DNA of 64,000 bases from contig MKVT01000008.1 in assembly GCA_001898935.1 (NCBI GenBank), positions 1 through 64,000 on the forward strand. The letters run 5' to 3'. The notes under the pieces are model-generated. The model was given only the letters and a program-made list of their open reading frames with translations. It ran no database searches and was not told where the DNA came from. The DNA comes from Paludibacter sp. 47-17 (lineage in GTDB: Bacteria > Bacteroidota > Bacteroidia > Bacteroidales > Paludibacteraceae). Shown here piece by piece: positions 4,005-32,916 of this stretch; positions within the stretch are counted from its first letter, which is position 1; every line of letters starts with the position of its first letter. The translations under genes and the position numbers were made by a program.

Positions 4005-5711
4005 ATGCAAGCTTCATTTGTTAAACGCCTTGGGGCACGTTTTGCGGCTGCTTTGGTTCGTTTTCCGCTGGCTATTGCCGGTATAGTTGTATGTACTGTG
4101 CTGCTGATACTGGAAGAGCTCCAGCCATCGTTCGACCTGTCGACGCGCTGGTGGGTGTTTTATTCGCTGGCTGCGGCGGTTTCGCTGGCAGTGGTCATGG
4201 CAGTAGAGCAGGTTTTGTCGCGTTGGTTGAGCTTGGTAATTCAGTTGGCGCTGGCCGCTATAGTGTTTTGGTACAGTTCCACCATTCCCGATCATCCTGT
4301 TACGGCACAAGTGGTCCAACTTGTTGTTTTGTATGGGGTTTCGATTTTGTCGGCCTATGTACTGGCGTACCTGAAACCTCATTCGGACGGTGCATTTCGC
4401 ACGTTTGCCGTGGAGGTAACACTTCAGGGAGTGGTTGCTTATGTGTTTGCGGGTGTGTTAATGGGTGGTTTAAGTCTGGCAGTGTTTTCGGTCGAATCGT
4501 TGTTTGGTGTCGATGTGCCTGGTCATGTGTACGACATCCTGGCCATTTTGTGCATGGTCGGTTTCGGGCCGCTTTATTTGTTGTCGAATATACCCTTGCC
4601 CCAGGAAATGAGCGATAAAGAAACGACTTTGCCCCAGGTGATGAAGATTTTAGGAATGTATATTTTACTTCCTATTCTGGCCTTGTATTTAGTGATATTA
4701 TACGTGTATCTGATCACGATTATCGTGCAATGGCAATTGCCCGACGGATGGGTGAGTACGCTGGTCTCGGTACTGGCTCTGGGCGGTTTCGTAACGATGG
4801 CTATCGTATATCCGCTGGCGCTACAGAAAGACAGAGTCGTAAACTGGCTGTTCCGTTTTTTCCCGTTGCTGCTTCTGCCTTTGTTGGTACTGATGTCGGT
4901 GGGGATCGCCCGTAGGCTGGGCGATTACGGCTTGACCATCAACCGGGGATTTGTGCTTATTTTAAACGGATGGTTGTACGGAATCTCCATTTATCTGTTG
5001 CTGACTCAATCGCGCCATCTGAAGTGGATAGTCGTATCGTTTGCCGTGGTAGCTTTTTTGTCGGTGACCGGGCCGTGGAGTGTGTCTTCGATCACCGAAC
5101 AACGATTGAAGAGCGAATTGCGTACCGAACTGCAGCTGGCCGGATACCTGCAGGAAAAGCCGCAGGAGCTGCAGTTGACCGATGAACGCCGGGAGCGGAT
5201 CAGCGAGTTGTCGGAGTATTTATCGTCGACATTCGGTAAAGAAGTGTTTGCGTCCCTCGAAGCCGATCCGCATTATACCGTCGCAGTCGATTCCTTGCTG
5301 GCCAATCGTTTCAGAACAGCGCCTTCGCGACGATTAATAGATGTCTGGCTGGAATCGAAGCATGAGCAGTTGCAACTCACCGGAACCGATCTGGTGTATT
5401 TTTTCGATTACCCGTTCACGCCAGTCAAAAGGAAAACAGCCGAAGCATCGGACGTTGAGGTAGATTATGCCGAAGGAATGTTGATTTTCAAGCATCGGGC
5501 GTTGTCGAAAGAAGTAAAAGTTCCTGTCGATCTCGAATTAGGAAAGATAGCCGAGCGGCACGATCGGGGGGAATACACGCTGAAGGAGGCAGTAGTGGAA
5601 GGAAACGGATACAGGCTGCTGGTGTCGCGGCTGTACGGATGGTACGACCAAAAGAAAGACCGTTTTGAAATTCAGGAGGCAGAGGGAAGCGTATACATCG
5701 ATTTTCAGTAA
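4005..5711 (+). CDS. DUF4153 multi-pass membrane protein
   Basis: An integral membrane protein of about 568 residues with roughly ten hydrophobic segments in its first 370 residues. A soluble C-terminal part (about 375-568) contains helical and beta-rich stretches such as LSEYLSSTFGKEVF. It resembles the DUF4153 family, whose function is not known. The frame opens with TTG at 3996, but ATG at 4005 (MQASFVKRL) is the more likely start. The gene follows the oxidoreductase after about 25 bp and may be co-transcribed, although no functional link is evident. Confidence 0.75.
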   Translation: MQASFVKRLGARFAAALVRFPLAIAGIVVCTVLLILEELQPSFDLSTRWWVFYSLAAAVSLAVVMAVEQVLSRWLSLVIQLALAAIVFWYSSTIPDHPVTAQVVQLVVLYGVSILSAYVLAYLKPHSDGAFRTFAVEVTLQGVVAYVFAGVLMGGLSLAVFSVESLFGVDVPGHVYDILAILCMVGFGPLYLLSNIPLPQEMSDKETTLPQVMKILGMYILLPILALYLVILYVYLITIIVQWQLPDGWVSTLVSVLALGGFVTMAIVYPLALQKDRVVNWLFRFFPLLLLPLLVLMSVGIARRLGDYGLTINRGFVLILNGWLYGISIYLLLTQSRHLKWIVVSFAVVAFLSVTGPWSVSSITEQRLKSELRTELQLAGYLQEKPQELQLTDERRERISELSEYLSSTFGKEVFASLEADPHYTVAVDSLLANRFRTAPSRRLIDVWLESKHEQLQLTGTDLVYFFDYPFTPVKRKTAEASDVEVDYAEGMLIFKHRALSKEVKVPVDLELGKIAERHDRGEYTLKEAVVEGNGYRLLVSRLYGWYDQKKDRFEIQEAEGSVYIDFQ

Positions 5712-20010: not shown

Positions 20011-20502
20011 TTAACTCAATTTCTCCCTCTCTACTAAGAGCGCTTTCATCGCCGTGCCCCACCGGTATCCGCCTAATTTTCCGGATGAGGTGAGCACCCG
20101 GTGGCAGGGGACGAAAACAGCCACAGGATTTTGGCCAATAGCGGTTCCGGTAGCGCGAACGGCTGTTGGCCTTCCTGTTTTCTGAGCAATATTTTTATAC
20201 GTACTAAGTTCGCCCGGTTTCAACTGTAATAGAGCTTGCCATACCGCAACCTGGAATTCGGTTCCCATCAGGTGCAAGGGCAAGGCGGCGGCTTTATCCG
20301 CCGATGCCGGCCATTCGTCGAGGAGTTCGACTACCTTACGGTGCAGTGGCTCTTCCTGCTTTATCAGTTCTGCCGGTCGAAACCGCCGTGTTAATTCTGA
20401 TACGGCATCTGTATCGAACAACACGCAACAGATCCCCTGTTCGGTGGTGCCCACCGTCGCTGCACCAAAGCGGGTTTTCAAAACGCTGTATTTTATTTTC
20501 AT
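20011..20502 (-). CDS. ogt: Methylated-DNA--protein-cysteine methyltransferase
   Basis: A 163-residue suicide repair protein that moves the alkyl group from O6-methylguanine (or O4-methylthymine) to its own Cys133 in the motif PCHRV. The helix-turn-helix DNA-binding part precedes it (residues 85-125, including the conserved RATGTAIGQNP). No Ada-type N-terminal domain is present. It lies 15 bp downstream of an AlkD-like DNA glycosylase on the same strand, making a two-gene alkylation-repair operon. Confidence 0.93.
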   Translation of the reverse strand: MKIKYSVLKTRFGAATVGTTEQGICCVLFDTDAVSELTRRFRPAELIKQEEPLHRKVVELLDEWPASADKAAALPLHLMGTEFQVAVWQALLQLKPGELSTYKNIAQKTGRPTAVRATGTAIGQNPVAVFVPCHRVLTSSGKLGGYRWGTAMKALLVEREKLS

Positions 20503-20517
20503 TTTAGGTATTAATTG

Positions 20518-21255
20518 TTAATTATGTGAGGACGGGTCATCAACCCTTATTTTTTCCATTGCGATCAATTTCAGGTCTTTCGGCATCTTTTCGATGGCAT
20601 ACCTGAGTGCTGTGCGGGGCATAGTGGCTCTCCGGGCTACCACAAAATTCAGAATTACCTGCTGGTGTTTCTGCGAAGCCACTTTGAGCATCCAGCCATA
20701 CCCTTTTTGTACAAGGTCGTCGCGATCGTGGAGGAGCGAGTCGGCAATCTCCAGAATATCCTGAAGAAACAATCCTTTGCGTGCCGGAACGATCAGCGAA
20801 ACAGCAGCTGCCCGGCGCATCCAACGGTTGGGCGATTTGGTAAATCGTTTTAATTGAGCAAGAAAAGAAGGGTACATTTCAATGAAATTCCCCATGGTAT
20901 GATTGCAAAATACATCGCAGGTAGCCCAATTGCTGACGTAGGTGTCGATCCATCGTTTGAAAAGTTCAAAGTCGCCGGGAGTAAAATACTTGCTCTGCGA
21001 TTCGGCCCAATTGCAGGCGATAATCGATTCTTCAAAATAGCCGGTTTGAAATAATTCTTCACATAAACCGAAAATTTCTTCCTTGGAGTCAGCTTTCACC
21101 AACTTCAGATATTCCTTACAGATAGAAGATACGGATGCGGATTTTACTCCGTGTAAACGAATTTCTTCTTTGAAAAAACGGCGGCCGCTCAGTCGCGTTT
21201 TCTCATCGGAACTGGCTTCCAGCTCCGCACTGATTTGTTCAATAAGTGCATTCAT
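20518..21255 (-). CDS. DNA alkylation repair protein, AlkD-like HEAT-repeat glycosylase
   Basis: A 245-residue all-helical protein of the AlkD/AlkC family. AlkD-type enzymes remove positively charged N3- and N7-alkylpurines without base flipping. Recognisable segments are WIDTYVSNWATCDVFC (about residues 105-120, holding conserved Trp and Asp residues of the active cleft), KSPNRWMRRAAAVSLIVPAR, and the later LVQKGYGWMLKVA. It precedes ogt in a likely operon, so the pair covers both N- and O-alkylation damage. Confidence 0.88.
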   Translation of the reverse strand: MNALIEQISAELEASSDEKTRLSGRRFFKEEIRLHGVKSASVSSICKEYLKLVKADSKEEIFGLCEELFQTGYFEESIIACNWAESQSKYFTPGDFELFKRWIDTYVSNWATCDVFCNHTMGNFIEMYPSFLAQLKRFTKSPNRWMRRAAAVSLIVPARKGLFLQDILEIADSLLHDRDDLVQKGYGWMLKVASQKHQQVILNFVVARRATMPRTALRYAIEKMPKDLKLIAMEKIRVDDPSSHN

Positions 21256-21718: not shown

Positions 21719-21753
21719 TTTTCTGCTTCCTGTTTCACGTTAATGGATCGGTT

Positions 21754-21789
21754 GCCCGGATAGAGAAATCTGTCCGGGTGCTTTTTTTT
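21754..21789 (+). terminator. Rho-independent terminator
   Basis: GCCCGGATAGA and TCTGTCCGGGT (within 21754-21780) form a stem around GAAA, followed by an eight-T run at 21782-21789. It separates the small secreted protein from the large permease fusion. Confidence 0.85.
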
Positions 21790-21852: not shown

Positions 21853-24800
21853 ATGGCAAAGGCGAAAAAATTCGGAGCATTCGGAGGAGTGTTTACACCT
21901 TCCATTCTTACTATATTAGGGGTTATTATGTATTTGCGCCTTCCGTGGATAGTAGGACAGGCGGGTTTGTTCGCTACCCTGGGAATCATCGTCGTGGCCC
22001 ATATTATTTCGGCCAGCACCGGGCTGAGCGTAGCTTCGATTGCAACCGATAAAAAAGTGGAAAGCGGAGGTACCTATTACATCATCTCCCGGAGTCTGGG
22101 ATTGCCCATCGGCGGTACCCTGGGCTGGGCTTTGTTTGTCGGGCTTTCGTTTAGCGTGAGTTTGTATCTGATCGGATTTGCCGAAGTGTTTCTTGGTTAT
22201 TTCGGTTTTGAGGTTACGCTTAACAACATCAGGATAGCCGGTGTGATTATCTTGCTGCTGGTAACCATTCTCACCTTTATCAGTACATCGCTGGCCATCA
22301 AGACGCAGTACATAATTATGACGGCGATGGTATTGTCGTTGATTTCGGTATTTCTCGGAAAGCATAACTTTGTTCCTGCGGCCCTGCAAACCGATACCTT
22401 ACCCGATTCGCTTCCCTGGATCGCTCTTTTTGCCATTTTCTTTCCGGCAGTAACCGGTTTTGAAGCAGGAGTGTCGATGTCGGGCGACCTGAAAGATCCG
22501 AAACGAGCCATTCCGGGCGGTACGATAGCCGCTATCGTGGTTGGTTTTGTGATCTATATCGGATTGGCCTATTATTTCAGCGCCACCGTCGATCGCCGGG
22601 TGCTGGTCGACGACCCGAATGTGTTGTTTGCTATCTCGTGGGTTCCGCAGCTGGTGATTGCCGGAATTTTGGGTGCGACGTTTTCGTCGGCTCTCGGAAG
22701 TATCCTGAGTGCCCCGCGCATTTTACAGGCGGTTGCCAAGGACCGCATTGCACCCCGGTTTTTTAGTAAAGGTCACGGTCCGTCGAACGAACCGCGCAAT
22801 GCCATTTTGCTTACCTTCGTGATCGCTCTGGGCGGAATTTTAATTGGCGAGTTGAATGTGATTGCCCGGGTAGTCACCACTTTTTTCATTATCACCTACG
22901 GATTTCTGAACATCACCTATACCGTTGAAAGCTGGGCCAGCAGCGATTTCCGGCCTTCGTTCCGCATTCCCCGGTTCGTAAGCATCGTAGGGGCCGTTGC
23001 CTCCATAGTGGTCATGATCCAGCTCGATATTCTGGCTATGATTGCAGCGTCGATCATCCTGCTGACCTTGTTTTTAGTCCTGCGCCGTCAGGAGCTCAAT
23101 CTGCAGTCGGGTGACACATGGACCAGCGTATGGATGTCGATCGTGAAACATGGATTGAAGAAACTGACCCGCAGCGAACTGCATACCCGCAACTGGCGAC
23201 CGAATGTGATTTTGATGAGCGGAGGAGTCACTGCGCGACCGCACCTCATTGAAATGGGCCTGGCACTGGTCGGACATCAGGGGGTGTTTACTAATTTCGA
23301 ACTCGAGCACGACGCCGGTTCTGCTCCCCGTCCTTCGGAAAAGGTGAAGGTGGAAAAGCTGAAGGATTATCCTGAGATTATTACCCGTAAATACCAGTGC
23401 AGTTCCATTTACGAAGGCATCGACATGATCAGCCGTGTATATGGTTTTTCGGGATTTGAACCCGATACCATTCTGATGGGCTGGCCGAAGGCTACGGCAG
23501 ATCCACTGCGTATGACTCAGCTCCTGGATAGCTTGCAACAGCGGGATTTTAACCTGGCTTTGCTCGATTACGACGAGGTACGTGGATTCGGCGCTTATGC
23601 GTCGGTCGATTTCTGGTGGAAGGGAAGTGGACGGGAGCTTTCGTTGGCGCTGCATTTGATGCGGTTTATAAGTTCCAGAAAGTCGTGGCGGAAGGCTCGT
23701 CTGCGCTTGTTGATCCTCAATGAGGATGCGACACTTACCGAGCGTTACTACGGCGTACTGAAGCAAATGGCCGACGATTACCGGCTTCCTGCCGAAGTGA
23801 AAGTGGTAATGAACCTGGAAAAGAAAGCTGCCGTCGAATGTATTGCCGTCGAGTCGGAGTCGGCGGATCTTACCCTCCTGGCGCTACCCGACAGGGAGGA
23901 GGAGCACAGTGTGCGTTTTATCGAACATGCCGACGCTTTGTCGTCGAAATTGCACAGTTGTTTATGGATACGTGCTTCGAACCGGTTCGAAACCATCGAA
24001 GTGCTGCCCGAAACGCAGCCCGAGCCAAGCCGGATGATGGAGGAGGCTGCCGGCGAGAAGGTGTGCACCTTGCTGGATGTAACCAATGCCCGGCGGGATG
24101 CCAGGGAGCTTACCGAATTTGCAGAAAAGATGGATGCGGATCTGGAGCAGTTGAAGTCCGGACTGTTTACCGTGCTGGAACACCGGCGATGGGCGGTGGC
24201 CGATGCATTGCACGCCGGAGTGGGATCGCCGCAACAATGGCTACAATTGATCGATCGTCAGCTGAAAGAAGAGCTTGCTTTTGAGGAGGCACTTGCCGGC
24301 CGCATGGTGGGAGCATTTCTGAACGCTGTAAAAACCACGGTCGACAACCTGGTTCAACAGCTGGCCCTCAAGCCCGGCCGCAACCATACGAAAGCGATGG
24401 AGGTGGCGGTGCGCTATTATTTATACGCACGGAGAGTGGATTCGGTCGAGCGTTTCTATAATAGTTTTTTACTTCGTACGCTGCACTATACGGTTTCGTT
24501 GCGCGAAATGCTTACGCAAGCACAGGATGAGGACCGGTTAGAGGCATTGAAGCTAGCTGCACAAGCGCATCTCAGAGCGATGCATTTCGACCTGGTTACC
24601 GATATGCGGAAAGATATCATTCTGCTTTCGCAACTGCTCGACAGTGCCAAACTGAGCGAAATGTATCCCGGAATGAAGAAACTCGTTGCGCAGAAGGAAG
24701 CCAGGCTGATCGAGCTGGAGGAGGCGCCGGGCCGTATGCGGAGGTTTATTCAGCTGCAGTGGAATAAAGCGATACTCGATGGATTGTGTCTGGATACCCG

Positions 24801-26682
24801 CGATAAGGTTTCCGCAGCTATCGGGCAGTTGACGGGAGAGGTGAATAGGGTGTTAAAGGCCGGTTTGTATCACTCTCTTTCGGGGTTGCAGGTTCGGCTG
24901 AGCGATCCTCAGCACAGGCCGGTAGAAGCCGCAGAGGGCGGAATGCCTTTGGTGGATTTGCTTTTTGTTCAGCTGAACGATCGATTACGCGATATTGTGG
25001 CAGACCTGCCCGAATTGATTACGGTACCCGGCAACCGTCTGCCCGAAGACTTGTCGATTGATAAGGCCGGCGATAGCGAGGAGCTGGAAATCAACATCCG
25101 TACTACGGTGGATTATTATATCAGCAACGAGCTGGTCGATCAGATCAATAAGCAGGCTCAGTTGTTCGGCAAGGGTGTACAGCGTGTGGCTGTGGCTGTT
25201 TCGAATATTACAAAATTGGCCACTTACCATCGATCGCAGTTTCAGGCTGCCGCTTCGGCCGATACGCGGGTATTCGACGATTTGAGGCAGAATGTCGAAA
25301 AAGAAACGGCAGATCTGGAAGCGATTGAAGCCACCCTGAAACAGGAGATGGAAGGGGCGTTAAAAAGGGCATTCGAATCATTGAGCGCTGTTGAGATTGT
25401 GAATGCTGCCGGCCGTCCCGGGGCGCGTATCGTGCCCCGTTATCAGCAGCGCAAGGCCCAGCGCCGGTTGGTACAGGCCATTGGCGACTACCGCCGTCGA
25501 TTGATACAGGCGCTGGTGGCCCTGTTTTATCATCAAAGCAAGGGCGTGTTGTGGACCAAGCGGCAAGAACTGACCGGAGAGCGGTCGTTGTTGTACCCGG
25601 GCGATGTTGTAAAGCAATACGCCGGGCGTCATCGACTCCATTCGAAAGTGATCGATCAATTGCCTTATTATTACGTCAATTTATTCACCGATGATGCGGG
25701 GGCATCGCAGGAATTCAGGGTGGTGATGCAGGAAGAGACCGCGCGGGGCAACCGGGCTATTGAACGGTTTAAGGAAGGTAATGCCGGGATGGTGATAGTG
25801 ACCGGCGACCGGGGGTCGGGCAAAAGTTCGATGGCCAGGTACCTGGTCGAGACGCATTTCGAAAAGCAGGATATCTGGCGGGTCCGGCCGCCTCTCGAAT
25901 GCAGTTCGGATGTGAAGAATTTCGACGATCAGCTGAAAGCGTTTGCCGGGGGCCGGGGTTCGCTGGAGCGCCGGCTGGACGAACTTTCGGGGAAAAAGGT
26001 GGTGTTGATCGACGATCTGGAGTTGTGGTGGGAGCGGCGCAGGCAGGGTACACAGGTGATCGACCGGATCGTGGAGCTGATGGGCATGTATGGTTCGCGC
26101 TTGCTGGTCGTGGCTACGGTGAACCGGTATGCACTCCGGGTGCTGGAACAACTGACGCCACTTACTTCGTGGGTTGGGGAGCTGATTTATTGTCAGCCTT
26201 TTAATGCCGGCGAACTGAAGGAGATGATTTTAACCCGGCATCAGGCAGGAGGGATGCGTTTTGTGCTTGACGACCAGGAAGAAGACGATTTTTCGGATTG
26301 GGCCTATGCACGTTATTTCAATCACCTGTTTAATTGTACCGGTGGCAATCCGGGTGCGGCAGCACATTGCTGGCTCGGCGGTATCCGTTCGGTGGAGGGG
26401 ATGCGTATTCGTATTGAGCGTCCGGTGCAGGAGGAGTTGCATGCGGTAGGATATCTGACGGATAGCGAGTGGATGGTGATTTTGCAGTTGGTGATGCATC
26501 GCAGGGTGTCGGTGGGCGGTTTAGCCCGTTCGTTGAACCGGGATTCCGAAAGAGTAGGAGCGGTCGTACGGCAGTTGCTTCACAATGGCGTATTGCATGA
26601 AACAACTACAGGGGTTTATATGCTGGAACCCTTTATGGAACAGGCATTAATTTCGAATCTGAAAAAATTGACATACCTATGA
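21853..26682 (+). CDS. SLC12-like cation-chloride cotransporter fused to a P-loop ATPase and winged-helix-like end
   Basis: An exceptional 1609-residue protein. Residues 1-410 are a 12-helix APC-superfamily permease of the cation-chloride cotransporter (SLC12) type, starting FGAFGGVFTPSILTILGVI. Residues about 445-720 match the SLC12 cytosolic domain (NWRPNVILMSGG at 447, VDFWW at 585-589). Residues 720-1280 are helical with no family I recognise. A P-loop NTPase follows: Walker A GDRGSGKSS at 1318-1326 and Walker B VVLIDD at 1383-1388, with an AAA/STAND-like look. About 1534-1590 looks like a winged helix. The stop overlaps an MscS-type gene by 4 bp. Ion substrate and ATPase role are unknown; ATP- or ligand-gated transport control is an inference. 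Confidence 0.8.
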   Translation: MAKAKKFGAFGGVFTPSILTILGVIMYLRLPWIVGQAGLFATLGIIVVAHIISASTGLSVASIATDKKVESGGTYYIISRSLGLPIGGTLGWALFVGLSFSVSLYLIGFAEVFLGYFGFEVTLNNIRIAGVIILLLVTILTFISTSLAIKTQYIIMTAMVLSLISVFLGKHNFVPAALQTDTLPDSLPWIALFAIFFPAVTGFEAGVSMSGDLKDPKRAIPGGTIAAIVVGFVIYIGLAYYFSATVDRRVLVDDPNVLFAISWVPQLVIAGILGATFSSALGSILSAPRILQAVAKDRIAPRFFSKGHGPSNEPRNAILLTFVIALGGILIGELNVIARVVTTFFIITYGFLNITYTVESWASSDFRPSFRIPRFVSIVGAVASIVVMIQLDILAMIAASIILLTLFLVLRRQELNLQSGDTWTSVWMSIVKHGLKKLTRSELHTRNWRPNVILMSGGVTARPHLIEMGLALVGHQGVFTNFELEHDAGSAPRPSEKVKVEKLKDYPEIITRKYQCSSIYEGIDMISRVYGFSGFEPDTILMGWPKATADPLRMTQLLDSLQQRDFNLALLDYDEVRGFGAYASVDFWWKGSGRELSLALHLMRFISSRKSWRKARLRLLILNEDATLTERYYGVLKQMADDYRLPAEVKVVMNLEKKAAVECIAVESESADLTLLALPDREEEHSVRFIEHADALSSKLHSCLWIRASNRFETIEVLPETQPEPSRMMEEAAGEKVCTLLDVTNARRDARELTEFAEKMDADLEQLKSGLFTVLEHRRWAVADALHAGVGSPQQWLQLIDRQLKEELAFEEALAGRMVGAFLNAVKTTVDNLVQQLALKPGRNHTKAMEVAVRYYLYARRVDSVERFYNSFLLRTLHYTVSLREMLTQAQDEDRLEALKLAAQAHLRAMHFDLVTDMRKDIILLSQLLDSAKLSEMYPGMKKLVAQKEARLIELEEAPGRMRRFIQLQWNKAILDGLCLDTRDKVSAAIGQLTGEVNRVLKAGLYHSLSGLQVRLSDPQHRPVEAAEGGMPLVDLLFVQLNDRLRDIVADLPELITVPGNRLPEDLSIDKAGDSEELEINIRTTVDYYISNELVDQINKQAQLFGKGVQRVAVAVSNITKLATYHRSQFQAAASADTRVFDDLRQNVEKETADLEAIEATLKQEMEGALKRAFESLSAVEIVNAAGRPGARIVPRYQQRKAQRRLVQAIGDYRRRLIQALVALFYHQSKGVLWTKRQELTGERSLLYPGDVVKQYAGRHRLHSKVIDQLPYYYVNLFTDDAGASQEFRVVMQEETARGNRAIERFKEGNAGMVIVTGDRGSGKSSMARYLVETHFEKQDIWRVRPPLECSSDVKNFDDQLKAFAGGRGSLERRLDELSGKKVVLIDDLELWWERRRQGTQVIDRIVELMGMYGSRLLVVATVNRYALRVLEQLTPLTSWVGELIYCQPFNAGELKEMILTRHQAGGMRFVLDDQEEDDFSDWAYARYFNHLFNCTGGNPGAAAHCWLGGIRSVEGMRIRIERPVQEELHAVGYLTDSEWMVILQLVMHRRVSVGGLARSLNRDSERVGAVVRQLLHNGVLHETTTGVYMLEPFMEQALISNLKKLTYL

Positions 26683-29061: not shown

Positions 29062-30183
29062 TTATCCGACGAAGGTAAGCAGGTAGCCGGCCAGCGATCC
29101 TCCCACCACGATAAAGGCGCTGTTGAGTTTCCTGAAACCAAAAACGGCCAGGAAGCTCAGCAGGGTTATGGTTACCGTGCGCCAGTCGGTAATGGTTGCC
29201 ATTCCCATTTCGATACAGATGACGGCGATAACAGCTACCGATGCCACATTAACCGCATCGAGAAAAGCAGCAAAGATTTTCGAGTTACGTATCTTTTTTA
29301 CCAGTGGATTGAGCAGGGCTACGAATACAAACGATGGAATGAAAATGCCCAGGGTTGCTACCAGCGCTCCCTGAAAATTGTCGATTTGATAGCCGATGAA
29401 GGTAACCGACGAAAATACGGGCCCGGGAGTGAATTGTCCGACTGCTATAGCGTCGATCAGTTGTTGTTGCGAGAGCAGTCCGGTGGCTACCAGCTCGGTG
29501 TCGAGGAAAGCAAACAGTACGTATCCGCTTCCGTAGAGTATAGCCCCCACTTTGAGGAAGGTAAGAAACAGGCCCAGCGATCCGCTGGCTGCCAGTCCGG
29601 TGCCGGTGATGTGCAGCAACGGAAGCGGTAGCAGGGCGCTTAGCTTACCCGCGTTTTTGGTTTGCATGGCCTTCAGAGCCATAGCCAGGAACCCGGCTCC
29701 GAAAAGTACGATAATTTCGCCGACCCCTGCAAAATTGAGCGCCATAGCCGCGATGCCGATGATCCACAGCTGGGTGGATTTGAGCGATTTCTTTGCCAGC
29801 GGATACACGGCTGCTGCAATAATGGCGATAATGGCCGGAGTGATGCCGTAAACGAAGGGTTGAAGCTCGGGGAGTTGTCCGTAGTTTTTGTACAATATGG
29901 CAAATACGGCCGTAATGAGCACCGCCGGCACAATAAAACACAGTCCGGCCACGATTAGTCCTTTCCAGCCTCCCCGGTCGTAACCGATATGAATGGCCAT
30001 TTCGGTGCTGTTGGGGCCCGGGATGAGATTGGTAGCGCCCATCAGATCGAGGAAATGCTGCTCGTCCATCCATTTTCGTTTGCGTACCACCTCGTCCTGC
30101 ATCATTGCGATATGCGCTGCCGGCCCTCCAAACCCGATAATTCCGAGTTTTAGAAATAACTTAGCAATTTCTTTTAACATCAT
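29062..30183 (-). CDS. chrA: Chromate transporter (CHR family)
   Basis: An inner-membrane protein of about 373 residues with two homologous CHR halves. The first half has FGGPAAHIAMMQDEVV and NLIPGPNSTEMAIHIGY; the second has FLKVGAILYGSGYVL and QFTPGPVFSSVTFIGY. Members export chromate in exchange for protons or sulfate. The start is placed at one of two adjacent ATGs (30183 or 30180). It lies downstream of the arsenic cluster and an AraC regulator, on the same strand. A -7 box at 30204-30211 suggests it can be transcribed on its own with a very short leader. Confidence 0.85.
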   Translation of the reverse strand: MMLKEIAKLFLKLGIIGFGGPAAHIAMMQDEVVRKRKWMDEQHFLDLMGATNLIPGPNSTEMAIHIGYDRGGWKGLIVAGLCFIVPAVLITAVFAILYKNYGQLPELQPFVYGITPAIIAIIAAAVYPLAKKSLKSTQLWIIGIAAMALNFAGVGEIIVLFGAGFLAMALKAMQTKNAGKLSALLPLPLLHITGTGLAASGSLGLFLTFLKVGAILYGSGYVLFAFLDTELVATGLLSQQQLIDAIAVGQFTPGPVFSSVTFIGYQIDNFQGALVATLGIFIPSFVFVALLNPLVKKIRNSKIFAAFLDAVNVASVAVIAVICIEMGMATITDWRTVTITLLSFLAVFGFRKLNSAFIVVGGSLAGYLLTFVG

Positions 30184-30203
30184 GCACGTATTTATAAGTA
30201 GCA

Positions 30204-30211
30204 CAAAGATA
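30204..30211 (-). promoter_or_regulatory. Putative -7 box of chrA
   Basis: CAAAGATA on the plus strand is TATCTTTG on the minus strand. It lies 21 bp upstream of the chrA ATG, between the AraC gene and chrA. Confidence 0.4.
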
Positions 30212-30259
30212 AGGCTTATCGGTCGGATGGATGTGGTGGCTACGGACGGAAAAATGGTA

Positions 30260-31090
30260 TTATTGAAAATATTTTCTGCGGAATTGCAGCGGAGTGACTT
30301 GTTCGTATCGTTTGAAGAATTTTACAAAATTGGAAGTGTCGGTAAACGCTAATATTTCAGCGATTTGGTTGATGGTATTGTCGGTATGCAGGATATAACG
30401 TTTGGCTTCGAGCAAGAGTTGATGGGCGATGAGTTCGCCGGCACTTTTCCCCGATTGTTTCCTGCAGAGGGAGTTGAGGTTTTGAGGAGTAGTGTTGACC
30501 AGTTCTGCGAATTCGTTTACCCGGTGCAAACGAGGACATTCTTTAGTAAGAAGGACGATGAACCGTTCGTAGACCGACTGTGGCCGGGTACTTTCGGGAG
30601 CTGTTGCGGCATTCAACCGCAACAGGCTTCCTACCAGCGATTTTAACAGCCCGTGAATGATGTCGTTCGAATATGGAGCATTGAGCTGGTATTCGGCGAA
30701 GATGGCTTCCAGCAGCCTCAGGGGGAACCGGTCCCTTGTCAGCCTGAGGCGTGTCATCGCTTGCAATTCGCGGAGCATGTCCAATAATCGCTTTTCGTTT
30801 ACCGGATCGAATTCGTTTTCGCGGTAAATAATCACAAATCCTTTGGGGATGGATGTAAATTGCCAGAAATGGAGTTGTCCGGGTTTCAGCAAATAAACCT
30901 CGGGCGACGAAATAAGATATTTCTCCGATTCGATGCTATGAAAACCCTGTCCTTCGGCTAAGAATATTAATTCGTAATATTCGTCATGCTTATGCGGTCT
31001 GGTCTTTTTAATTTGCTCTTTAAATCGTGAAATTTTAAATGTATGTCCCTCGCCGAGTTTATTTTTTGTTCCTATGTGTTTTTGTTCCAT
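30260..31090 (-). CDS. AraC-family transcriptional regulator
   Basis: A 276-residue regulator. Residues 20-100 form a cupin-like sensor domain (HKHDEYYELIFLAEGQGFHSI). Residues about 175-276 form the double helix-turn-helix domain (VNEFAELVNTTPQNLNSLCR, then ILAFTDTSNFVKFFKRYEQVTPLQFRRKYF). It sits directly after acr3 (4 bp gap) and before chrA, so it may control the chromate transporter or the end of the arsenic operon. The inducer is not known. Confidence 0.88.
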   Translation of the reverse strand: MEQKHIGTKNKLGEGHTFKISRFKEQIKKTRPHKHDEYYELIFLAEGQGFHSIESEKYLISSPEVYLLKPGQLHFWQFTSIPKGFVIIYRENEFDPVNEKRLLDMLRELQAMTRLRLTRDRFPLRLLEAIFAEYQLNAPYSNDIIHGLLKSLVGSLLRLNAATAPESTRPQSVYERFIVLLTKECPRLHRVNEFAELVNTTPQNLNSLCRKQSGKSAGELIAHQLLLEAKRYILHTDNTINQIAEILAFTDTSNFVKFFKRYEQVTPLQFRRKYFQ

Positions 31091-31094
31091 CTTC

Positions 31095-32126
31095 TTAATA
31101 TCTAGTCCGGTTGGCGTATCTTACCAGAGCCAGCATTACAGGTACTTCCACCAGCACTCCGACCACCGTGGCCAGGGTGGCACCCGAGTTTAAGCCGAAT
31201 AAGATGATTGCCACAGCCACCGATAATTCGAAGAAATTACTGGCGCCGATGAGCGAAGCAGGTGCTGCGATGTTGTGGGGCAATTTCCATTTTCGGGCCC
31301 ATCGGTAGGCCAGGAAAAAGATTACAACGGTTTGCAGGATGAGCGGAACGGCAATCAGCACGATATTGAACGGATTTTTCAATATAACATCTCCCTGGAA
31401 CGAAAAGATCAGGATCAGTGTTAATAGCAGCCCGCCGATGGTGATTCCGGTGAACTTCTTCAGGAAAACATTTTCGAAGAAAACCTTTCCTTTTTTCGAA
31501 ATGACTGCGTTACGGGTGACAACGGCCAGTAGCAATGGGATTACGACAAACAGCACCACCGACATCAGCAGAGTGTTCCAGGGGATGGCGATTCCCGAAA
31601 CGCCCAGCAGCAGACTCACGATGGGCACGAAGGCTACAATGATGATCAGGTCGTTGATGGCTACCTGCACCAGGGTGTAGGCAGCATTGCCTTTGGTGAG
31701 GTGACTCCACACGAACACCATGGCGGTACAAGGTGCGGCGCCGAGCAATACCGCACCGGCCAGGTATTCGCGGGCGAGTGCTTCGGGCAGGAAGGTTTTG
31801 AAGATGACGAAGAAGAACAGCCAGGCAATTCCAAACATGGTGAAGGGTTTAATGAGCCAGTTGGTTACCAGTGTGATAGTAAGCCCTTTGGGCATTTTTA
31901 CAGCATCCACCACACTGCGGAAATCAATCTTCAGCATCATGGGGAAAATCATGATCCAGATCAGCACTGCAATAGGGATGGAAACATTGGCATACTCGAG
32001 TTTGCCGAGTGTTTCGGGGATCGATGGAATGTACCTGCCGAGTACAATACCGGTAACAATACAGAGCGCCACCCAAAGGCTCAGGTAGCGATCGAAAAAC
32101 GACATTTGTCTGGATTCGTTACTCAT
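31095..32126 (-). CDS. acr3: Arsenite efflux transporter, ACR3 family
   Basis: A 343-residue, ten-helix inner-membrane protein that pumps arsenite out of the cell. Family features are MSFFDRYLSLWVALCIVTGI at the N-terminus and LLGAAPCTAMVFVWSHLTKG, which holds the conserved Cys essential in ACR3 proteins, followed by IGASNFFELSVAVAI. The start is ATG 32126; it overlaps the end of arsM by 8 bp, which supports co-translation. It is the terminal arsenic step of the cluster. Confidence 0.93.
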   Translation of the reverse strand: MSNESRQMSFFDRYLSLWVALCIVTGIVLGRYIPSIPETLGKLEYANVSIPIAVLIWIMIFPMMLKIDFRSVVDAVKMPKGLTITLVTNWLIKPFTMFGIAWLFFFVIFKTFLPEALAREYLAGAVLLGAAPCTAMVFVWSHLTKGNAAYTLVQVAINDLIIIVAFVPIVSLLLGVSGIAIPWNTLLMSVVLFVVIPLLLAVVTRNAVISKKGKVFFENVFLKKFTGITIGGLLLTLILIFSFQGDVILKNPFNIVLIAVPLILQTVVIFFLAYRWARKWKLPHNIAAPASLIGASNFFELSVAVAIILFGLNSGATLATVVGVLVEVPVMLALVRYANRTRY

Positions 32127-32916
32127 AACGCGATTTATAAGCTGAAATGGTGATACTGTAAACTCCAAAATCGTTGGTAGTGTTGGAGTTCAAATTATAT
32201 TTTTGTACGATTGAAGCCGGAAGATCGATGGCTTTCTTTTTATGCAGGATAAGGGAGGTAAATCCTGTGTCTTCAATTAATTGCAGGTAGTGTTCGAGTT
32301 CGAGCGCACCTGTCACACAACCCACATAAAGCATAGCGTCCTTTAGCAGTTCATCCGGTAAATGGCCCGAAATGACCACATCGGAAATGCAAAAATGGCC
32401 ACCAGGTTTTAAAGTCCGCCAAATTTCCGAAAAAGCTTTAGCTTTGTCGGGGACCAAATTGAGTACACAGTTGGAAAGAACTACATCAAATTGAAGATCT
32501 TCAAAAGGCATAGCTTCGATATCGCCCAATATAAAATCGACATTGGTAAATCCCAGTTTTTGAGTATTTAACCGGGCTTTTTCAACCATTTCCTTTGTGA
32601 AATCAAGCCCTGTTACGTGCCCTGTGTCTCCGGTGAGATGTCGTGCGACAAAGCAGTCGTTGCCTGCACCACTACCCAGATCGAGTAGTCGGTCGCCGGG
32701 CTTTATTGCTGCGAATTGGGTTGGGATGCCACACCCCAAGCCCATATCGGCATCGTTTATATGGCCTTCGATACCGCTGTATTCATCGCCTATCATGCTG
32801 TATTCCAGCGAATCGCAACACGAAGAACCACTGCCGCAGCAGCTGTTCAGTAAGCTTCCTCGGGCAATATTTCCGTATTTTTCCTGAACAACCAGTTTCA
32901 TGTTTTTCGGGTCCAT
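32119..32916 (-). CDS. arsM: Arsenite S-adenosylmethionine methyltransferase
   Basis: A 265-residue enzyme that methylates As(III) stepwise using SAM. The SAM site is LLDLGSGAGNDCFVA (residues 77-91). The three arsenic-binding Cys are present: Cys62 in LGCGIP, Cys150 in LSNCVLNLVPD and Cys200 in YVGCVTGAL. An N-terminal stretch holds two further Cys pairs (NSCCGSGSSCC, residues 25-34). The frame runs upstream into arsC; the start is placed at ATG 32916 (MDPKNMKLVV), although ATG 32901 is also possible. It lies between arsC and acr3 with small gaps or overlaps. Confidence 0.93.
   Translation of the reverse strand: MDPKNMKLVVQEKYGNIARGSLLNSCCGSGSSCCDSLEYSMIGDEYSGIEGHINDADMGLGCGIPTQFAAIKPGDRLLDLGSGAGNDCFVARHLTGDTGHVTGLDFTKEMVEKARLNTQKLGFTNVDFILGDIEAMPFEDLQFDVVLSNCVLNLVPDKAKAFSEIWRTLKPGGHFCISDVVISGHLPDELLKDAMLYVGCVTGALELEHYLQLIEDTGFTSLILHKKKAIDLPASIVQKYNLNSNTTNDFGVYSITISAYKSRYE

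Follow-up and report, generated by a model that had tools for sequence, protein, structure and literature searches.

Cation-chloride cotransporters (CCCs) of the SLC12 family are, in humans, salt carriers of kidney and nerve that are controlled by cell volume and serve as drug targets. For other ion carriers, TrkA/RCK proteins act as nucleotide-binding cytoplasmic regulators. A different group of nucleotide-binding proteins, the STAND NTPases, carries the motifs hhGRExE and GxP; STAND-like NTPases, as well as membrane effectors, are frequent in defence. For SLC12 proteins themselves, the accessible sections of PMC8280820 report ATP/ADP binding by the C-terminal domain of human KCC1 and stabilization of other CCCs by adenine nucleotides, while those same sections describe control via phosphorylation and do not mention a P-loop ATPase. 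Nucleotide effects on SLC12 proteins thus have a precedent. On the bacterial side, the accessible part of PMC3924187 includes a transporter table in which the CCC family has no number entered for Myxococcus xanthus. Our literature search, which covered openly accessible journal papers, returned no account of the fusion described here or of a pairing of an AAA+ protein with an MscS-like channel, and no study on the control of bacterial CCCs.

We analysed a 64,000-nucleotide stretch of contig MKVT01000008.1 from Paludibacter sp. 47-17 (hereafter the window), in which an uninterrupted ORF (21853-26682, plus strand, ATG start) encodes a protein of 1609 aa with the features given in Table 1. A sequence-only reading had proposed that an SLC12-type permease, a run of helices, a P-loop NTPase and a winged-helix end are joined in this protein, and the proposal was borne out, the arrangement being conserved across genera and phyla. 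The concern that two separate genes with an intervening stop had been taken for one can be dismissed: the frame is single and the fusion is kept in relatives. The further statement, that no module of this kind occurs in known SLC12 transporters, overlooks the binding of ATP/ADP to the C-terminal domain of KCC1; the accessible sections of PMC8280820 mention no P-loop ATPase. The terminator-like hairpin that precedes the fusion gene is a pattern match, with 14 such sites in the region against 7.6 in shuffles.

Table 1. Features of the fusion gene and its flanks, in window coordinates
Feature	Residues	Position	Strand	Basis
Terminator-like hairpin and T run, between fusion gene and upstream ORF		21753..21780	+	Consensus scan, 12 pairs
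SLC12 (cation-chloride cotransporter) transmembrane domain	~1-430	21853..23142	+	Pfam AA_permease, phmmer
SLC12 cytoplasmic C-terminal domain	~450-715	23200..23997	+	phmmer to KCC4/KCC1, NKCC1
Long all-helical domain	736-1264	24058..25644	+	AF2, Foldseek, hhalign
AAA+ NTPase domain	1265-1529	25645..26439	+	AF2 model, structure comparison
Walker A GDRGSGKSS	1318-1326	25804..25830	+	Sequence; G....GK[ST] in 57/58 rows
Walker-B-like strand and motif VVLIDDLELWWER	1383-1395	25999..26037	+	D-L-x-L-W-W-E in 58/58 rows
Winged-helix domain	1530-1609	26440..26679	+	AF2 secondary structure, weak Pfam, Orc1/Cdc6 alignments
MscS-like small channel gene, 234 aa		26679..27383	+	Pfam MS_channel_2nd, YnaI similarity, conserved neighbour

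A profile search of the window protein, which the sequence-only reading had recommended for the part beyond the permease, placed the SLC12 part above its Pfam cut-off and the AAA and winged-helix matches below theirs. AA_permease matches residues 13-422 (8.4e-51; 173.5 bits, cut-off 24.6), and the alignable APC-type transmembrane domain (Pfam, phmmer) places the protein in the SLC12/CCC family, with NKCC1 (7smp_B, 1.5e-74), KCC4 (8.4e-73) and NCC (5.3e-63) as the best solved relatives by phmmer. The cytoplasmic C-terminal domain is also of SLC12 type; KCC4 and KCC1 chains align over query residues 189-693, and the NKCC1 alignment reaches residue 546 with a further weak segment at 584-623 (phmmer). 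The NCBIfam model of K-Cl cotransporters, TIGR00930, gives 3.9e-108, yet the score of 362.9 bits falls below the curated cut-off of 953.4, and assignment to this subfamily was rejected. The SSAL stretch of TM8, which presumably has a role in Na+ binding, matches NKCC1 in the alignment and is present in 48 of 58 fused rows. The missed TIGR00930 cut-off and the sharing of this stretch with NKCC1 indicate a protein that is NKCC/NCC-like rather than KCC-like; Na+-(K+)-Cl- cotransport is the probable function of the SLC12 part. The carrier motifs SGDL (58/58) and FFPA[VA]TG (57/58) are kept in the fused rows, and the median identity to the window over residues 1-440 is 72% among 57 relatives. Likeness to NKCC1, NCC and KCC covers the transmembrane and C-terminal domains to about residue 690, whereas the window protein has some 890 extra residues comprising a helical arm, an AAA+ domain and a winged helix.

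These extra residues were modelled with AlphaFold2 (residues 721-1609, 54 sequences, single chain), giving a mean pLDDT of 83, with the NTPase and winged helix mostly at 84-95 per ten-residue block. The helical domain (736-1264, ~530 residues, mean pLDDT 84.2) is all-helical in the model and Foldseek did not find a known fold for it (best E 0.34). Beyond it lies a P-loop with an AAA+ core fold according to the predicted model and structure comparison, and hence the doubt as to whether residues 1300-1500 hold an NTPase fold at all is answered by AlphaFold2 and Foldseek together. The top Foldseek matches of the model are to ORC/Cdc6 (9.4e-8), with RuvB and TnsC lower in the list, and the Orc1/Cdc6 structural alignments continue into the winged helix. 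All matches to named Pfam AAA families lie below curated cut-offs (e.g. AAA_16, 1.8e-5), and the winged-helix matches are weak and also below cut-off (HVO_A0114 at 4.3e-4, TrmB, MarR). As modelled, the NTPase fold is closest to the Orc1/Cdc6/TnsC AAA+ proteins. These and RuvB share the AAA+ core and winged helix with the window module, but the module is fused to a membrane transporter or adjoins a channel gene, is 9-18% identical to the listed matches and has DLELWWER and RH motifs that are particular to it.

Conservation of these motifs across fused rows excludes their occurrence by chance. The G-(4)-G-K of Walker A, the W-W and the R-H are invariant or nearly so in 21 fused rows, and among 58 rows the Walker A pattern G....GK[ST] is found in 57 and both D-L-x-L-W-W-E and R-H in all. 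The two motifs named by the sequence-only reading, GDRGSGKSS as Walker A and VVLIDD (residues 1383-1388) as Walker B, are both present, but the conserved acid of the latter is the second D (58/58 rows) and the first acid position is variable (D 2, N 26, H 15, Q 9, E 6 in 58 rows). Because this first position is acidic in just 8/58 rows, the AAA+ part may hydrolyse ATP slowly or not at all. The suggestion of a nucleotide-controlled carrier with STAND-like sensing has fared unevenly: nucleotide control is carried forward below in conditional form, whereas the fold is nearest Orc1/Cdc6/TnsC and the STAND repeats are absent. The superstructure repeats that follow the winged helix of STAND NTPases at the C-terminus are lacking, as the window protein terminates in its winged helix. 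Both have an NTPase with a winged helix, and a GNPG stretch may correspond to the GxP motif, as may a VGRxxEL-like stretch in some relatives to a STAND motif; the extra domain of the window protein, however, is N-terminal and helical. The candidate STAND motifs of the window protein are degenerate (VVMQEE, GNPG), with a loose GR-E pattern in 10/58 rows.

A profile search of genome contigs with a 21-row NTPase alignment returned 162 relatives, the best 80 of which were kept. SLC12 and ATPase share one frame in 66 of these 80, namely 64 called frames (six truncated at the contig start, and L150, whose frame retains just the last portion of the transmembrane part) and two Myxococcota loci (L165, L169) by direct reading, their genes being read by frame and by six-frame hmmsearch. 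At eight loci the contig start cuts before SLC12, and at six the ATPase frame has its own start and no SLC12 in frame; SLC12 lies just upstream in a different frame at five of the six and was not found on the contig of the other (L156, 975 aa ATPase frame). With the fusion present in 66 of the best 80 relatives, an assembly artefact is ruled out. At L207, L211, L213, L215, L216, L218 and L221, where the fetched locus ends early, the open frames are 1687-1750 aa long and the loci were not scored as lacking the ATPase.

The survey within Bacteroidota proposed by the sequence-only reading found the fusion conserved across genera and reaching other phyla: among the best 80 of 162 it occurs in Bacteroidota, Ignavibacteriota, Delongbacteria and Myxococcota, with carriers including Marinilabiliaceae, Cyclobacteriaceae, Ignavibacteriaceae, Candidatus Delongbacteria, Enhygromyxa salina, Plesiocystis pacifica and Plebeiobacterium sediminum (L162). 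The nearest of the 80 is from Paludibacter sp. (L092; 63% over the NTPase). When whole genomes of the window's order were searched, a C-terminal match was found in 59 of 295, and 41 of the 64 C-terminal matches (the window's own counted) lay in frames of at least 1600 aa. Across the phylum, 69/395 genomes were matched by one sequence and 76/395 by profile at 1e-10, and of the 79 profile matches 49 lay in frames of 900-1160 aa and four in frames of at least 1600 aa. The window carries the only full fusion among 101 genomes of its family, eight other genomes of which have a ~740-aa SLC12 protein without the fusion, and the fusion is absent from the five other sampled members of the genus.

The fusion gene and the gene that follows share an ATGA, at which the former stops and the latter starts. 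Its 234-aa product has an MscS beta-domain (PF00924, MS_channel_2nd, 6.2e-7; 29.9 bits against 20.2), similarity to YnaI over residues 9-153 (4.3e-4) and three hydrophobic stretches. It shares the beta-domain and this similarity with the MscS and YnaI channels, but differs from them in being only 234 aa long, in its linkage to a partner and in a PW near the C-terminus that is invariant in 25 rows. A same-strand MscS-like gene follows the ATPase in 78 of the best 80 relatives, in 76 by called ORFs within 500 bases downstream (41 with a 4-base overlap, 66 within 50 bases) and in two more by six-frame search. It is the next gene at 18 of 20 loci in a second set of fused ATPase loci, a count that is not independent of the first because eight contigs are common to both sets. 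The gene is missing from L110, L164, L059 and L067 (two of the 80 and two of the 20 fused loci), and counts for loci L052-L089 are partly circular, as 24 neighbours from these loci served to build the MscS HMM. Pfam detected the beta-domain in seven of nine scanned small neighbours (window, L052, L057, L078, L087, L178, L180); the neighbour at L091 gave only a sub-threshold DUF2810 match in Pfam and 2e-10 with the MscS HMM, and that at L088 matched neither. SLC12 loci without the ATPase provide a control, with an MscS-like neighbour in 0/38. This set comprises 8 + 23 unfused loci (flanks of up to 1.5 kb), three close unfused relatives (L252-L254) and L255-L258; 34 of the 38 hold at least 700 bases downstream, while the remainder (L002, L006, L007, L255) could hardly reveal a neighbour. 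Thus, the MscS-like gene tracks the ATPase and not the carrier. At L113, L118, L122-L124, L130, L132, L134, L135, L137, L138 and L141 the fusion gene has a second, larger MscS-family gene of 547-621 aa upstream of it in divergent orientation.

The module of helical domain, ATPase and winged helix also occurs alone in ~1000-aa proteins that have no carrier. These standalone ATPases are the commonest form in the phylum sample, and apart from the MscS-like gene their neighbourhood varies (peptidase M49, amidase, CorA). In a third form, of ~1500 aa, the module is fused to a CPA-type antiporter (L087, L089, L173, L174, L175). Na_H_Exchanger matches L087 at 3.7e-21 and L173, L174 and L175 at about 1e-18; L089 has no Pfam antiporter match and is classed with them because 440 residues align to L087 at 31% identity (2.5e-48). 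All five CPA fusions have a TrkH gene and an MscS-like gene beside them, and TrkA adjoins the four scanned for it (L087, L089, L173, L174). The gene upstream at CPA-fusion loci (414-422 aa) has no Pfam match in L087 and L173, both of which were scanned. L091 and L184 combine a separate antiporter gene with an adjoining small MscS-like gene and an ATPase of ~800 aa. Overall, 39 loci carry the module alone, in short form or with an antiporter, and 35 of them have a same-strand MscS-like gene next to the ATPase, the exceptions being L076 (contig edge), L088, L185 and L187. CPA antiporters and Trk K+ systems offer a parallel as ion carriers under nucleotide-binding cytoplasmic control, but in the proteins described here the putative regulator is of AAA+ type and borne on a helical arm, with the CPA-type loci lying beside TrkH/TrkA.

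Comparison of helical domains by hhalign gave 98.6% for SLC12-fused against standalone, 98.4% for SLC12-fused against CPA-fused and 98.2% for standalone against CPA-fused proteins, with reversed or column-shuffled controls at 0-1.5% and the first profile against its own reverse at 45.8%. These profile comparisons show the three kinds of helical domain to be homologous, that of the SLC12 fusions corresponding to N-terminal or middle parts of the standalone and CPA-fused ATPases. The transporter is not a universal client because standalone ATPases have none of their own. It can also persist without the ATPase, since L255-L258 are four complete SLC12-plus-helical genes (1310-1345 aa) from which the ATPase is absent; small neighbours of about 166-182, 151 and 399 aa are common to these loci. 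Short ATPases of the same family, 298-413 aa in length, that have no helical domain (L083, L085, L086) have a directly adjoining MscS-like gene, and on a distant ATPase branch (L177-L179, L181-L183, L186, L188) the MscS-like gene is upstream, not downstream. At L190 a gene for a CorA-type Mg2+ transporter (4324-5436) adjoins the MscS-like gene of a standalone ATPase.

Both trees were built by a quick method with no bootstrap, and L205 (contig edge) and L226-L228 (duplicates of L252-L254) were left out. The 75-row NTPase tree places 36 SLC12-linked rows on one side of a branch (SH-aLRT 99; L156 counted among them, although SLC12 was not found on its contig) and five CPA-fused rows in one clade (SH-aLRT 99). 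In the SLC12 tree, which was flagged for long branches, one clade of 58 rows (support 100) unites the fused proteins with their closest relatives that lack the ATPase, and presence of the ATPase needs four changes. The two separate clades therefore point to two separate fusions to unrelated ion transporters, and we read the history as one joining of the module to SLC12, followed by losses, plus an independent joining to a CPA antiporter.

Gene linkage, fusion to two unrelated carriers and the presence of Trk beside the CPA type suggest a role in ion and turgor homeostasis. Building on the observed architecture, part folds, conservation and gene linkage, we judge it on balance probable that the fusion protein works together with the adjoining 234-aa protein as a two-gene unit for ion/turgor control, with an AAA+ switch and an exchangeable carrier. 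The ATPase and the MscS-like channel look like the core pair of this unit and the transporter like its exchangeable arm (SLC12, CPA antiporter or none). The helical domain would be a cytoplasmic arm bearing the Orc/Cdc6-like AAA+ switch, capped by the winged helix. Membrane tension or ion state would act on the MscS-like protein and/or the helical arm, and the AAA+ part would respond with an altered nucleotide state and possibly oligomerization, which would set the activity of the transporter and perhaps that of the channel too. As an outcome, salt movement by the carrier and release through the valve would be kept from opening at the wrong time. We infer for this unit the nucleotide-dependent regulation, the contact with the MscS-like protein, the sensed signal, the ion specificity and the direction of transport.

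An alternative is that the ATPase serves the MscS-like channel, in its assembly, gating or removal, and that the transporter is fused merely for co-location or shared expression. The tracking of the ATPase by MscS-like genes, which are lacking at all 38 SLC12 loci without it and kept at 35 of 39 ATPase loci without SLC12, fits this account, but the separate fusion to two unrelated carriers and the presence of TrkH/TrkA would be difficult to account for were the carrier of no importance, and we consider this alternative improbable. A membrane-tethered gene regulator, whose transporter or helical arm senses ions and whose putative DNA-binding AAA+-winged helix alters transcription, seems somewhat less probable again. 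Its case lies in the best structural matches, which are to the DNA-handling Orc1/Cdc6, TnsC and RuvB, and in the weak winged-helix matches to transcription-factor families; set against it are a winged-helix net charge near neutral (+1 in the window protein; between -4 and 7 across 58 rows, with a median of +1), the finding of no HTH family above the Pfam cut-off and a conserved neighbour that encodes an MscS-like membrane protein.

The presence of carrier and NTPase on one polypeptide might also denote a primary active salt pump in which AAA+ hydrolysis drives SLC12 transport. This is very improbable because the motifs of the carrier have been preserved and the NTPase is missing from some relatives (the four complete genes with carrier and arm), and the degenerate Walker B motif and the standalone occurrence of the same NTPase elsewhere likewise count against it. 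An anti-phage STAND-type defence protein with an ion-channel effector is harder still to credit: the frequency of STAND-like NTPases and of membrane effectors in defence systems and weak PADLOC mad8 matches in two relatives (L087, 6.1e-6; L078, 2.1e-4) speak for it, but PADLOC gives no match up to 0.01 for either window protein, the SLC12 core is conserved and Trk genes adjoin the CPA-type fusions.

The two-gene ion/turgor-control unit can be given a more specific form, which we hold tentatively: a volume-control machine of a new class, consisting of the Orc/STAND-like AAA+ protein on its helical arm and the MscS-like channel, would have been plugged separately into unrelated carriers, and an ATP-dependent switch would choose between carrier and valve. 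If true, bacteria would have in this machine a kinase-free counterpart to the way animal cells control NKCC/KCC osmotically. In four phyla, fusion and gene order bring together a carrier, a putative switch and a putative tension sensor, and two genes suffice to put the coupling of salt transport to turgor to a direct test. The module further contributes a helical domain whose search returned no known fold and an AAA+-MscS partnership previously undescribed in the literature searched. Elsewhere in the window, on the minus strand, a 6-O-methylguanine-DNA methyltransferase gene adjoins a DNA alkylation repair enzyme gene (20011-21255), and genes for a chromate transporter, an AraC-type regulator and an SBF-family transporter are consecutive (29062-32168).
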